From positions 542 through 8,110 of the forward strand of contig DEWO01000024.1 in the NCBI GenBank assembly GCA_002363695.1: a stretch of 7,569 nucleotides of DNA. Reading direction: 5' to 3'. Every line of letters starts with the position of its first letter. Within the stretch, counting starts at the first letter, position 1. Source of the stretch: Prevotella sp. UBA3208 (lineage in GTDB: Bacteria > Bacteroidota > Bacteroidia > Bacteroidales > Bacteroidaceae). Made by a program: the position numbers and the translations under genes. Positions 3,429-6,316 of the stretch are shown one piece after another. A model generated the notes under the pieces. The model did not search any database, was not told where the DNA came from, and was given only the letters and a program-made list of their open reading frames with translations.

Positions 3429-4784
3429 ATGCTGGCCTACATCCGCGAAGGACGCGAGATGACCCAAGGCGAGAAACTCAGGCTGATTGTCAGCCTGAGT
3501 ATTCCGTCCATTCTGGCACAGATATCTGCCACCGTCATGTTCTTCATCGATGCCTCTATGGTAGGTCATCTGGGTGCCAAGGCTTCTGCGGCCATCGGCA
3601 TTGTGGAGACCACAGGATGGCTGCTGGGCGGACTGGCCTCGGCTGCCAACATGGGATTCTCCGTACAAGTGGCCCACGCTATTGGAGCCAACGACTTCGA
3701 ACGGGCACGCAGGGTATTGCGCCAGTCACTGGTGTGCTGTCTGTTGTGGGCACTCAGCATCTCGCTGATAGCCGTTTCTATCAGCGGCCACCTGCCCTAC
3801 TGGATGGGCGGTACGGAAGAGATTGCCCACGACGCCTCGCTCTATTTTGCACTGATTGGCGTCTTTGGCATCTTCTTCCAGATGGAAGGTCTGGCAGGCT
3901 CGATGCTGAAGTGTTCAGGAAACATGAAGATTCCTTCCGTCCTGAACATCCTGATGTGCGTGATGGATGTCTGTTTCAACTATGTCTTTATCTATATCCT
4001 CAACCTGGGTGTCATGGGTGCAGCCATGGGTACGGGTGTCGCTGAGTTGATAACGGCCGGGCTGATGCTCTACTTCCTGCTCGTGCGCTCGGATATGCTG
4101 CATCTGAAAGGCCGCCCAGGGTCGTTCCGTCCCAAGAGCGACGTGGTTGGCAATGCGTTCAAGATTGGTGTCCCCATGGGGCTGCAGCATATGCTGATGG
4201 GAGGCGCACAGATTGTGAGCACGCTGATTGTGGCTCCACTGGGTACGGTGGCTATTGCCGCCCACTCGCTGGGCATCACCGTCGAGAGCCTATGCTATAT
4301 GCCCGGCTACGGCATTGCCGAGGCTGCCACCACATTGGTAGGACAGAGTTTTGGCGCCTGTCAGCGTCTGTTGACGCGCTCGTTTGCCCGTATGTCAATA
4401 GCACTGGGCATGGGCGTGATGACGATGATGGGAATGCTGATGTGGGTGTTTGCCCCCGAACTGATGTCGCTGATGACGCCTGTGGACGAGATTATCCAGA
4501 CGGGAGCCTATTGTCTGCGCATCGAAGCCTTTGCCGAACCCATGTTTGCTGCAGCCATCGTCTGTAACGGTGTGTTCATCGGTGCTGGCGACACGCTGCG
4601 TCCTGCTGCCATGAGCCTATGCTCCATGTGGGGTGTCCGTCTGACACTGGCTGCCCTGCTGGCTACTGCTTACGGACTGCCTGGTGTATGGACCGCTATG
4701 GCCATCGAGCTGACCTTCAGAGGACTGCTGTTCTTGACAAGGCTCTTTCATGGCGGCTGGATGAAGAAAATGAATGAAGCATAA
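3429..4784 (+). CDS. MATE family multidrug/metabolite efflux transporter
   Basis: The product is a polytopic inner-membrane protein of 451 residues, the usual size for the family, with about twelve hydrophobic segments. MATE proteins export drugs, dyes or metabolites in exchange for Na+ or H+. Family marks are IPSILAQISATVMFFIDASM (25-44) followed by VGHLGAKASAAIG at the first helix, and ANDFERARRVLRQSL between early helices; the second half repeats the pattern from FKIGVPMGLQH, including GIAEAATTLVGQSFGA. Three starts are possible: GTG 3408, ATG 3429 and ATG 3459. I prefer 3429 because it is an ATG and keeps a short amphipathic N-terminus before helix 1. ATG 3459 has GAAGGA six bases upstream and is a reasonable alternative. 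The gene follows the GH36 gene by 29 bp and probably shares its promoter. Its stop codon overlaps the T-rich tail of a minus-strand terminator. The substrate cannot be predicted. Confidence 0.9.
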   Translation: MLAYIREGREMTQGEKLRLIVSLSIPSILAQISATVMFFIDASMVGHLGAKASAAIGIVETTGWLLGGLASAANMGFSVQVAHAIGANDFERARRVLRQSLVCCLLWALSISLIAVSISGHLPYWMGGTEEIAHDASLYFALIGVFGIFFQMEGLAGSMLKCSGNMKIPSVLNILMCVMDVCFNYVFIYILNLGVMGAAMGTGVAELITAGLMLYFLLVRSDMLHLKGRPGSFRPKSDVVGNAFKIGVPMGLQHMLMGGAQIVSTLIVAPLGTVAIAAHSLGITVESLCYMPGYGIAEAATTLVGQSFGACQRLLTRSFARMSIALGMGVMTMMGMLMWVFAPELMSLMTPVDEIIQTGAYCLRIEAFAEPMFAAAIVCNGVFIGAGDTLRPAAMSLCSMWGVRLTLAALLATAYGLPGVWTAMAIELTFRGLLFLTRLFHGGWMKKMNEA

Positions 4785-4830
4785 AAGAATGAGATGCAGC
4801 ACTCGGGTTACCCCCCGTGGGCTGCATCTC
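4781..4830 (-). terminator. Terminator hairpin of minus-strand unit A
   Basis: GAGATGCAGC at 4791-4800 is the exact reverse complement of 4821-4830, with a C/G-rich inner part (CGGG/CCCG) that can extend the stem. On the minus strand the stem is followed by ATTCTTTTAT (4790 down to 4781), a moderately U-rich tail. On the plus strand it is followed by AAACTATC, so it serves the minus strand better than the MATE gene. The tail overlaps the MATE stop codon at 4782-4784. Confidence 0.6.
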
Positions 4831-4940
4831 AAACTATCAATAACTAAAAACCTATTCTTATGAAAAAAGCGCGTCTCACGACGTCGAGTGTTTTTCCTGA
4901 AAACTTTTACCTTATTACTAACTTTCTCTCTTGAAGACGA
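4782..4940 (-). ncRNA. Candidate small RNA (unit A), about 155 nt
   Basis: This is inferred from boundaries, not from a known RNA family. A TACCTTTG promoter element sits at 4950-4943 and a 10-bp terminator stem at 4830-4791. Between them the minus strand has no ATG-started frame; the only ATG lies inside the terminator stem. Inside, CGTC-GTGA-GACG (4883 down to 4872) can form a small hairpin with a GNRA-type loop. The 3' end is antisense to the last bases of the MATE gene. The promoter shares its sequence and upstream palindrome spacing with unit B. I do not recognise it as SRP RNA, 6S RNA or tmRNA. Confidence 0.45.
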
Positions 4941-4942
4941 TG

Positions 4943-4950
4943 CAAAGGTA
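4943..4950 (-). promoter_or_regulatory. -7 element TACCTTTG of unit A
   Basis: The minus strand reads TACCTTTG from 4950 to 4943, followed by CATCGTC, identical to the unit B promoter. At the 19-bp position the -33 triplet is TAC rather than TTG, so this promoter lacks a good -33 element. That would fit activator dependence, with the palindrome 61 bp upstream as the candidate site. Confidence 0.6.
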
Positions 4951-4977
4951 CGACGATTTTTGAGAACTTGTACTAAA

Positions 4978-5010
4978 AAGCCCCTCTTTTCGTGAAAAAA
5001 GGGGTTTATT
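4978..5010. terminator. Bidirectional intrinsic terminator between the MATE gene and rsmA
   Basis: CCCCTCTTTT at 4981-4990 pairs with AAAAAAGGGG at 4995-5004 with one mismatch and a 4-base loop (CGTG). On the minus strand the stem is followed by CTTTTTAG, a good end for rsmA. On the plus strand it is followed by TTTATTCTT, so it may also stop transcription coming from the MATE gene. It lies between unit A's promoter and its upstream palindrome. Confidence 0.75.
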
Positions 5011-5011
5011 C

Positions 5012-5025
5012 TTGACGTACATCAA
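5012..5025. promoter_or_regulatory. FNR-like palindrome TTGAC-N4-ATCAA upstream of unit A
   Basis: TTGACGTACATCAA matches the Crp/Fnr-family pattern TTGAT-N4-ATCAA with one arm base changed; flanking C and G extend the symmetry to 16 bp. Its near edge is exactly 61 bp from the TACCTTTG of unit A, placing its centre near -80 relative to the expected start. The protein that binds it is not identifiable from this window. Confidence 0.5.
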
Positions 5026-5029
5026 GCAA

Positions 5030-5066
5030 TTGTGTACGAGCACAAGTACTTTGTGTCCGAACACAC
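5030..5066. repeat. Tandem palindromes TTGTG-N6-CACAA, 21 bp apart
   Basis: TTGTGTACGAGCACAA (5030-5045) and TTGTGTCCGAACACAC (5051-5066) are two copies of a TTGTGTnCGAnCACA palindrome repeating at 21 bp, about two helical turns. They sit in the 3' flank of rsmA, beside the FNR-like palindrome at 5012-5025. They could be protein-binding sites or RNA hairpins in the rsmA 3' untranslated region; the sequence does not decide. Confidence 0.5.
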
Positions 5067-5080
5067 CGCATTTTTACTGA

Positions 5081-5878
5081 TTATTTCTCCGAGGTGACCA
5101 GCAACTTTTCCACCAGATTGGTCAATTCCACAAACTGAGGAATAGTCAGCTGCTCAGGGCGCAATGTCATGAAGGGATGATCGGCAACAGACGACAGGTC
5201 GGGTAAAAGCTGCTTTAAGGACACGCGCAGCATCTTGCGACGCTGGTTGAACACGGTCTTCACTACCCGTTTGAACAGTTGTTCGTTGCAGCCCAGATGC
5301 TGTGTCTGGTTGCGCGTCATACGAATGACGGCACTCTTGACCTTGGGAGGCGGATTGAAAACGGTTTCGTCGACCATGAACAGGTACTCCACGTCGTACC
5401 ACGCCTGGATGAGTACAGACAGGATGCCATACGCCTTGCTGCCTGGCTGGGAAGCAATGCGTTGAGCCACCTCATGCTGGATCATACCTGTACAACAGGG
5501 TATAAGCTCGCGGTTGTCTATCATCTTGAAGAATATCTGCGACGAAATGTCGTAGGGATAGTTACCCGTGAGCACAAACTGCTCACCGTCGAAAACCTTC
5601 GACAAATCCATACGCAGGAAGTCGCCTTCGATGATTGGAGTTTCGTCCCCTCGAAACAATGTTCCCTTCAGATATTCCACGCTCTCGCGGTCAATCTCCA
5701 CCACCTTGAACGGACGAGGCTTCTCCACCAGATACTGCGTCATCACACCCATACCCGGGCCGACCTCTAACACGGGCAGGTCGGGACAGGCATCCACCGT
5801 ATCGGCAATGCGACGGGCTATCGAAAGGTCGGTCAGGAAGTGCTGGCCAAGGTTCTTCTTAGGTCTTACTTGCTTCAT
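5081..5878 (-). CDS. rsmA: 16S rRNA (adenine(1518)-N6/adenine(1519)-N6)-dimethyltransferase RsmA (KsgA)
   Basis: RsmA uses S-adenosylmethionine to dimethylate two adjacent adenines in the 3'-terminal hairpin (helix 45) of 16S rRNA, a late step in small-subunit assembly in the cytoplasm. The 265-residue product has normal length and order: VRPKKNLGQHFLTD (4-17) at the N-terminus, SAM-binding motif LEVGPGMGVMT (37-47), EIDRE (61-65) for the ribose, EGDFL (84-88), catalytic motif NYPYDISSQIF (106-116), FNPPPKVKSAV (174-184), and a helical C-terminal domain with FNQRRKMLR (210-218). A longer frame reaches a TTG at 5917, but the -7 promoter element at 5913-5906 lies inside that extension, and family members begin at MKQVRPKK, so ATG 5878 is chosen. 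There is no Shine-Dalgarno sequence; an eight-codon upstream frame overlaps the start (ATGA). The gene ends at the terminator at 4978-5010. Confidence 0.97.
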   Translation of the reverse strand: MKQVRPKKNLGQHFLTDLSIARRIADTVDACPDLPVLEVGPGMGVMTQYLVEKPRPFKVVEIDRESVEYLKGTLFRGDETPIIEGDFLRMDLSKVFDGEQFVLTGNYPYDISSQIFFKMIDNRELIPCCTGMIQHEVAQRIASQPGSKAYGILSVLIQAWYDVEYLFMVDETVFNPPPKVKSAVIRMTRNQTQHLGCNEQLFKRVVKTVFNQRRKMLRVSLKQLLPDLSSVADHPFMTLRPEQLTIPQFVELTNLVEKLLVTSEK

Positions 5879-5901
5879 GTGCTCACGTATTTCGGGTTCA
5901 T
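5875..5901 (-). other. Eight-codon, nearly leaderless upstream frame overlapping the rsmA start
   Basis: ATG at 5901 lies only 4 bases after the rsmA -7 element, about where transcription should start. It encodes MNPKYVST, and its TGA overlaps the rsmA ATG as ATGA. Since rsmA lacks a Shine-Dalgarno sequence, a leaderless ribosome finishing this peptide could reinitiate at rsmA. This is inferred from arrangement alone and chance is possible. Confidence 0.35.
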
Positions 5902-5905
5902 GGTG

Positions 5906-5913
5906 CAAAGATA
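5906..5913 (-). promoter_or_regulatory. -7 element TATCTTTG of rsmA
   Basis: The minus strand reads TATCTTTG from 5913 to 5906, fitting TAnnTTTG. It starts within a few bases of the T-run of the preceding terminator (5922-5916), so the expected -33 position falls in that terminator's hairpin; no TTG is seen there. The expected start near 5902 leaves about 24 nt before the rsmA ATG. Confidence 0.6.
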
Positions 5914-5915
5914 AC

Positions 5916-5943
5916 AAAAAAACCGCAGACTTAGTGTCTGCGG
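5916..5943 (-). terminator. Strong intrinsic terminator of unit B
   Basis: On the minus strand CCGCAGAC (5943 down to 5936), a 5-base loop, and GTCTGCGG (5930 down to 5923) form a perfect 8-bp GC-rich stem followed by seven T and then GTT. It lies 32 bases past the stop of the 30-codon gene and directly ahead of the rsmA promoter, so it separates the two units. Confidence 0.85.
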
Positions 5944-5974
5944 CTCTGGTTATTTTACTAAGAAAATTTCTTTT

Positions 5975-6067
5975 TTACTTTAAAAGTACCTTTGCATGTT
6001 TGCAAATGTACATAGCCTCGAGGGCTGCAGCGGCCATAACGACCAGCGAGAACATTGTTAACATCAT
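5975..6067 (-). CDS. Small hydrophobic membrane peptide, 30 residues (unit B)
   Basis: This unrecognised small gene runs from ATG 6067 to TAA 5975. The product starts MMLTMFSLVVMAAAALEAMY and ends ICKHAKVLLK. Residues 3-22 form one Ala/Met/Val-rich hydrophobic segment interrupted by Glu17, and the tail carries three lysines and a histidine, so a single-pass inner-membrane peptide with a cytoplasmic C-terminus is likely. Support comes from its surroundings: a promoter with both elements (6177-6148), AAAGGA six bases before the ATG, and a strong terminator 32 bases after the stop, in a unit of about 230 nt. A second ATG directly follows the first. Function is unknown; small membrane peptides often modulate a transporter or sensor, or act as toxins, but nothing here selects among these. 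It lies between the divergent flippase gene and rsmA. Confidence 0.65.
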   Translation of the reverse strand: MMLTMFSLVVMAAAALEAMYICKHAKVLLK

Positions 6068-6073
6068 ACTTTT

Positions 6074-6079
6074 TCCTTT
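6074..6079 (-). promoter_or_regulatory. Ribosome binding site AAAGGA of the 30-codon gene
   Basis: The minus strand reads AAAGGA from 6079 to 6074, six bases before the ATG at 6067. A good Shine-Dalgarno sequence is unusual among the genes of this window and supports translation of the short frame. Confidence 0.6.
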
Positions 6080-6147
6080 CTCAATCTTTTGTTATCCTTT
6101 AAATCTTTTTTGCTTATCGGAACATCTCTTTGTCCCTTTTGACGATG

Positions 6148-6178
6148 CAAAGGTACGAACTATTCATGACATAGCAAG
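6148..6178 (-). promoter_or_regulatory. Promoter of unit B (-33 CTTG, 19 bp, -7 TACCTTTG)
   Basis: On the minus strand CTTG (6178 down to 6175) and TACCTTTG (6155 down to 6148) are separated by 19 bp, the same spacing as in the PheC-like promoter. The -7 element and following CATCGTC are identical to unit A. Transcription should start near 6144, giving a leader of about 77 nt before the ATG. Confidence 0.75.
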
Positions 6179-6216
6179 CGACAGATGAGTACTTTCAACG
6201 GGAAAAAGGCTTTTCT

Positions 6217-6230
6217 TTGACCTCAGTCAA
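6217..6230. promoter_or_regulatory. FNR-like palindrome TTGAC-N4-GTCAA upstream of unit B
   Basis: TTGACCTCAGTCAA has perfect arms TTGAC/GTCAA. Its near edge is exactly 61 bp from the unit B TACCTTTG, the same distance as the matching palindrome at unit A. Pattern and arm spacing fit Crp/Fnr-family operators; the regulator is not in this window. Confidence 0.55.
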
Positions 6231-6246
6231 TAAATCCAAACAATCG

Positions 6247-6260
6247 TTGATTTGTATCAA
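6247..6260. promoter_or_regulatory. FNR-like palindrome TTGAT-N4-ATCAA between divergent promoters
   Basis: TTGATTTGTATCAA is an exact match to the classical FNR pattern TTGAT-N4-ATCAA. It starts 30 bp from the start of the palindrome at 6217 and ends 48 bp before the -7 element of the flippase-like gene, with its centre near -66 of that gene. It could serve that gene, unit B, or both. Confidence 0.5.
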
Positions 6261-6308: not shown

Positions 6309-6316
6309 TACCTTTG
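6309..6316 (+). promoter_or_regulatory. -7 element TACCTTTG of the flippase-like gene
   Basis: TACCTTTG lies 8 bases before the ATG at 6325, so the transcript would be almost leaderless. The nearest upstream TTG, at 6282-6284, is 24 bp away, longer than the usual 19-21 bp. The preceding bases contain a tandem GAATTAT repeat (6291-6304). The element sits inside the longer frame that opens at ATG 6286 and argues against that start. Confidence 0.6.

Follow-up and report, generated by a model that had tools for sequence, protein, structure and literature searches.

The class-I promoters of Escherichia coli CRP and FNR, in which a palindromic upstream operator shifts in steps of one helical turn, resemble most closely the promoters described here. 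FNR itself carries four cysteines that hold a [4Fe-4S] cluster. To our knowledge, few global regulators of the Bacteroidaceae besides Cur have a defined motif. Cur (BT4338) is a global Crp-family regulator in Bacteroides with the motif wwwTATGTTnTAnAACATAwww (PMC3878776, PMC6989115). HcpR regulators belong to the same Crp/Fnr family; HcpR1 of the delta-proteobacteria uses TTGACnnnnGTCAA (wyTTGACnnnnGTCAArw), the published HcpR2 consensus is GTAACnnnnGTTAC (PMC1274295), and the predicted HcpR regulons in most Bacteroides consist of hcp only (PMC1274295, PMC13370916). For the FopS/GibS small RNAs (Rfam RF04319), it has been suggested that FopS may be enhanced during bile stress by an unknown regulator (PMC11697453). 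We analysed a 7,569-nucleotide stretch of Prevotella sp. UBA3208 (assembly GCA_002363695.1, contig DEWO01000024.1, positions 542 to 8,110), called the window below, in which two predicted minus-strand transcription units flank the 16S ribosomal RNA (rRNA) methyltransferase gene rsmA and each pair a putative Crp/Fnr-type operator with a sigma-ABfr promoter at one and the same distance.

The 18-mer GACGATGCAAAGGTACGA lies at 4936-4953 and 6141-6158, with no further match in the window at up to two mismatches and none in 200 dinucleotide shuffles of it. Within each copy is a -7 element separated by 61 nt from an exact TTGAY-N4-RTCAA palindrome (Table 1). An earlier note, made from the letters of this DNA, had pointed out the repeat, both palindromes and both gaps, and exact matching confirms them; the random-sequence control that it proposed also upholds the pairing, as TTGAYNNNNRTCAA-N58..64-TANNTTTG is found at two places in the window and not even once in any of the 200 shuffles. 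The 18-mer is less telling than palindrome and spacing, because it consists mostly of the sigma-ABfr -7 consensus and a conserved initial stretch (TACCTTTGCA-NN-GTCAAAAG is found in many targets).

The arrangement is conserved downstream of rsmA in relatives, here the best 80 by an rsmA protein scan (more exist), all labelled Prevotella, Prevotellaceae or Bacteroidales. The TANNTTTGCA promoter was sought in the first ~240 nt past the rsmA stop codon, with the palindrome disregarded, and was present in 53 sequences (52 relatives and the window). Every one of these 53 units has an exact TTGAY-N4-RTCAA upstream, at a start-to-start distance of 74 (14 sequences), 75 (38) or 76 nt (one). In several relatives the palindrome runs into the rsmA stop codon or directly adjoins it; what is kept is therefore its distance from the promoter, not from the gene. 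The unit on the micro-protein side was found within 650 nt in 15 of 78 assessable sequences. Over the 80 loci and the window, 79 of 89 palindromes with an N4 spacer have a -7 element at a gap of 46-76, 76 of them at 60-61 (another count gives 80 pairings), as against none of 16 palindromes with N2, N3, N5 or N6. The conservation of palindrome and spacing, which the earlier note had proposed to test, is seen in all downstream units that have the promoter and in a minority of the upstream ones.

The same architecture recurs throughout whole genomes. In nine Prevotella genomes, reached via the rsmA-region loci, TTGAY-N4-RTCAA-N58..64-TANNTTTGCA occurs 63 times (5-8 per genome) versus 0 in the reversed control. 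When the gap is widened to 46-76 there are 111 matches (61 at 60-61, 27 at 68-72, 9 at 50-52 and 14 elsewhere) versus 3 in the control; gaps of 77-107 add 33 matches versus 2, 16 of them at 79-83. The clusters at 50-52, 60-61 and 68-72 nt are one helical turn apart, as expected for an activator confined to one face of the helix. The earlier note's view that the spacing, with centres near -80, is compatible with activation is supported. The bare palindrome is found at 23 places in genome G001 versus 10 in the reversed control, so some single sites are chance occurrences. At the level of the order, four of 60 genomes match the motif, G001 included; at the level of the family, 93 of 151 do. The earlier note had both units answer to one regulator in a small regulon around rsmA. 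Co-regulation of the RNA and micro-peptide units remains likely, and the confinement to the rsmA region falls, because the same architecture precedes rRNA operons, small RNAs and protein genes genome-wide.

Several kinds of target stand behind the operator. Both gap-70 sites of G001 that were checked lead to 16S rRNA (L148, L149). The small RNA FopS follows the operator in two of 34 scanned loci (L086, L098), and L108 and L138, which were not among the scanned loci, have the same FopS start by sequence comparison. A secreted hypothetical family of ~120 aa is represented by nine proteins in one cluster from the nine Prevotella genomes; one member has no Pfam match, and its relatives are hypothetical, some with PF16231. 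In 40 stretches from other Bacteroidaceae, hand-picked among the matches listed in the family survey, the operator is followed by 16 open reading frames (ORFs) of 100-140 aa, of which 15 match a profile built on this family in Prevotella (E 1.5e-16 or better); none of the 40 matched FopS at E 0.01. DUF2582 winged-helix and DUF6242 proteins recur as well, with six proteins to a cluster (one protein per cluster was scanned against Pfam), and GreA, OEP, a class-II aldolase and a tyrosine-recombinase N-domain are single cases. Inspection by eye of the first ORFs behind the operators recognised none as hcp-like, and no search was aimed at hcp. A cobalamin riboswitch lies near the operator-promoter pair in L083 and L283.

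Proteins with PF00027 are encoded in all nine genomes, and two groups (A and B) recur in each of them with one copy apiece. Group B, a ~200-aa Crp/Fnr protein (L169:1393-1992), is the candidate regulator. Its helix TPETLSR is present in nine of nine genomes, and a pattern search found PETLSR in 28 of the 30 best family-wide loci. In the Crp/Fnr family, TTGAC half-sites accompany Ser or Pro at position 180 combined with Glu at 181 (PMC1274295); in our alignment the Pro and Glu of PETLSR fall at these two positions, and the predicted recognition helix of group B is FNR-like and fits that rule. Where the best 120 matches of group B are named, they are called Crp/Fnr family transcriptional regulator or CRP-like cAMP-binding protein, and the solved structure nearest to the protein in sequence is 3dn7. 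Across the nine orthologues the candidate contains one to three cysteines; it ends shortly past the recognition helix, and Pfam gives no HTH_Crp_2 match for it.

Searched for across the family with a single query and at fixed E-value thresholds, the group B gene was found in 86 of 93 motif genomes versus 12 of 58 others (Fisher p 4e-20, kinship ignored); a stricter E-value set gives 79 of 93 versus 8 of 58, and 50 of the 51 genomes with at least three motif copies have the gene. The group A Crp paralogue was rejected as the binder. It is found in 134 of 151 genomes and does not discriminate (85 of 93 versus 49 of 58, p 0.2), and its recognition helix varies. Cur was likewise rejected, as the window palindromes do not fit the motif published for it.

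Taking the observed palindrome, spacing, phasing, conservation, targets and gene co-occurrence together, we propose that the two units are part of a genome-wide promoter set in which TTGAY-N4-RTCAA, placed ~61 bp upstream of TAnnTTTG, is probably bound by a conserved Crp/Fnr protein that would activate from a fixed face of the helix. The group B protein and its orthologues would bind the palindrome; the bound regulator would be an activator of class-I type that contacts RNA polymerase from about -80, and its output would tie the making of rRNA to that of small RNAs and of small proteins, either membrane-bound or secreted. With the class-I promoters of E. coli CRP and FNR this scheme shares the palindromic upstream operator, the one-turn steps and a candidate binder of the same family. 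In contrast to them, mostly one position (60-61 bp) is used here, before a sigma-ABfr promoter, the targets are rRNA, small RNAs and micro-proteins, and the candidate binder ends soon past its recognition helix.

A number of observations weigh against this proposal. The promoter is lacking downstream of rsmA in 27 of the 80 relatives (one further sequence is too short), and 63 of the 78 assessable sequences have no upstream unit within 650 nt. Family-wide, the 68-72 gap class is noisier, with 49 matches versus 10 in the control; the regulator is present in 28 of the 31 genomes that hold these matches. In one genome (G195) the motif is matched five times and the regulator is missing even at E 1e-8, G135, G152, G162 and G172 likewise have the motif and lack the regulator at that threshold, and G113 and G183 have the motif and only distant relatives of the regulator; conversely, G076, G092, G118, G146 and G173 encode a protein with the PETLSR helix and have no match at gap 58-64. 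The 300 nt upstream of the regulator gene contain no palindrome in any of the nine genomes, and the candidate is known from the genomes of relatives and not from the window's own. The co-occurrence figures take no account of kinship, and activation, as opposed to repression, is read from position alone.

The exceptions on both sides of the co-occurrence, together with its neglect of phylogeny, would suit a different reader of the palindrome, a nucleoid factor or another regulator, with the Crp/Fnr gene co-travelling by kinship. We regard this as unlikely, as the half-site fits the published helix rule (PMC1274295), nearly all genomes with at least three motif copies have the group B gene, and the other Crp paralogue is about as common in genomes without the motif as in those with it. 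A role of the palindrome as an FNR- or HcpR-type operator that answers to redox state, oxygen or nitrosative stress, signals which the earlier note had suggested, is very improbable, even though TTGATnnnnATCAA is an FNR/DNR-type box and the HcpR1 motif comes close to the window palindrome. The published consensus of HcpR2, the branch with the Bacteroides proteins, is a different one (PMC1274295), and HcpR is disfavoured as the binder for this reason; the targets recognised, in an annotation that is not exhaustive, are rRNA, small RNA, DUF2582, GreA and small proteins and not redox enzymes, and differ from the predicted HcpR regulons. The one to three cysteines of the candidate also set it apart from FNR with its four. 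The proposed sensing of oxygen, redox or nitrosative stress finds no support.

Some Crp/Fnr proteins repress, and position alone does not settle the sign of control. Repression of these promoters seems rather improbable, given that the sites lie well upstream of the -7 element in phased steps and that rRNA promoters are among the targets. The repeats might also be copies of a mobile or duplicated element, in keeping with one 18-mer occurring twice in the window; this is scarcely credible, as the sequences between palindrome and promoter and the downstream genes differ, yet the spacing is kept across species.

Beyond the activator proposal itself, we tentatively suggest, with rather less assurance, that the set is a position-locked global Crp/Fnr regulon which in the Bacteroidaceae takes over the function of CRP or Fis. 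It would link the making of rRNA with that of small RNAs and of a whole class of ~30-residue membrane proteins that lack annotation, and a further Crp-type site (TGTGTnCGnACACA in Prevotella, Cur-type elsewhere) would supply a second input. By a loose pattern, 15 of 63 regulon promoters have such second-type sites between palindrome and promoter, which may feed in another Crp-family signal; in other Bacteroidaceae a Cur-like site, also by a loose pattern, takes this place in 23 of 41 cases, so both regulators may act together. Second-type palindromes TGTGTACGAGCACA and TGTGTCCGAACACA are also present in the window at 5031-5044 and 5052-5065. A search of the open-access PMC literature, with most subscription papers outside it, returned no account of the motif, regulon or regulator. 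Now that an exact motif can be named together with a candidate protein and a set of targets (rRNA operons, FopS, DUF2582, the secreted ~120-aa family and micro-proteins), one deletion mutant could put the proposal to the test, and the promoter signature offers a means of finding small RNAs and ~30-residue proteins missed by gene callers.

Table 1. Features of the two paired units and of rsmA in the window (window positions).
Feature	Position	Strand	Details
Predicted non-coding RNA, start and end inferred	4783..4938	minus	GTCTTCAA start, GACGTCG-N-GA-GACG hairpin, tail TAGGTTTTTAGTTATTGATA, terminator; fold z -4.1
Terminator hairpin of the downstream RNA	4790..4831	minus	inverted repeat; seven pairs changed on both sides
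-7 element TACCTTTG, sigma-ABfr type	4943..4950	minus	rsmA-downstream unit; 61 nt from palindrome
Hairpin followed by T run, probable rsmA terminator	4981..5004	minus	by inspection of sequence; between palindrome and promoter of the rsmA-downstream unit
Crp/Fnr-type palindrome TTGAC-GTAC-ATCAA (TTGACGTACATCAA)	5012..5025	.	exact match; putative operator of the rsmA-downstream unit; between rsmA stop codon and downstream promoter
rsmA (ksgA), 16S rRNA dimethyladenosine transferase	5081..5878	minus	TIGR00755, 254 bits vs cut-off 171
Separate -7 element TATCTTTG ahead of rsmA	5906..5913	minus	sequence match
Terminator hairpin after the micro-ORF and before the rsmA promoter	5920..5946	minus	fold -18.3 kcal/mol, z -6.2
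30-codon ORF MMLTMFSLVVMAAAALEAMYICKHAKVLLK, predicted membrane micro-protein	5975..6067, stop included	minus	eight homologous sequences
-7 element TACCTTTG	6148..6155	minus	micro-protein unit; 61 nt from palindrome
Crp/Fnr-type palindrome TTGAC-CTCA-GTCAA (TTGACCTCAGTCAA)	6217..6230	.	exact match; putative operator of the micro-protein unit
Third palindrome TTGAT-TTGT-ATCAA (TTGATTTGTATCAA)	6247..6260	.	30 bp beyond palindrome 6217..6230; absent from the earlier note's account

The rsmA-downstream unit of the window is predicted to make a non-coding RNA of ~155 nt; inspection of the sequence revealed no convincing ORF, and no further test for one was applied. Sequences of rsmA-downstream RNAs were collected only if both a GTCTTCA start and TTTTAGTTATTGATA were present (L055 was dropped for want of TTTTAGTTATTGATA), and 14 of the 16 collected were aligned, with L011 and L016 left out. 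In this alignment the GACGTCG-N-GA-GACG hairpin is invariant and a terminator stands at the end, to which all seven two-sided pair changes are confined. The start and tail blocks are conserved partly by selection, because GTCTTCA and TTTTAGTTATTGATA were selection criteria. Among the other rsmA-downstream units listed, most have GTCAAAAG- or GTGATTCAG-like starts, and a similar tail ends many of them. The window RNA is shorter in the middle; it lacks a segment of ~50-60 nt that in its relatives lies after the start and ahead of the GACGTCG hairpin. In L024 and L045 the rsmA-downstream transcript contains two small ORFs (27-28 and 25 residues) and is not non-coding.

Some Prevotella FopS genes lie behind the operator; the window RNA is no member of that family. 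It has no match to Rfam RF04319 at E up to 10, and its resemblance to FopS is not significant, as 148 of 2000 shuffles score equally well. A match to BTnc201 at 4784-4870 is at chance level (21.1 bits against a gathering score of 105).

The upstream unit is predicted to make a 30-residue micro-protein, and the 30-residue reading frame that the earlier note had assigned to it is confirmed. Pooled over the eight homologous sequences, nonsynonymous (pN) and synonymous (pS) differences are 0.159 and 0.381, a pN/pS of 0.42 from few sequences with kinship ignored. Seven relatives of this ORF stand behind the same kind of operator (L017, L018, L022, L028, L040, L056 and L090), some at other genomic places. 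Other loci have further families of ~30-residue ORFs behind the operator, in a list that is biased by its selection for hydrophobicity and for a purine run upstream, and in other Bacteroidaceae a conserved ~30-aa protein of a different family is also found there.

The rsmA gene lies between the two units, and a strong predicted terminator divides it from the micro-ORF. As it has a promoter motif of its own there, rsmA is probably a neighbour of the paired units rather than their target. It is the first ORF of at least 90 codons in four loci (L082, L101, L105 and L128), and in those four regions a micro-ORF precedes it (listed under L075, L063, L037 and L018).

The 30-bp palindrome doublet of the micro-protein unit is also found in L018 and L022. 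In the window its outer member, 6247-6260, lies 48 nt before a plus-strand TACCTTTG (6309-6316) ahead of a flippase-like gene (TIGR00374), a gap near the 50-52 phase yet off it, and might serve this divergent promoter.

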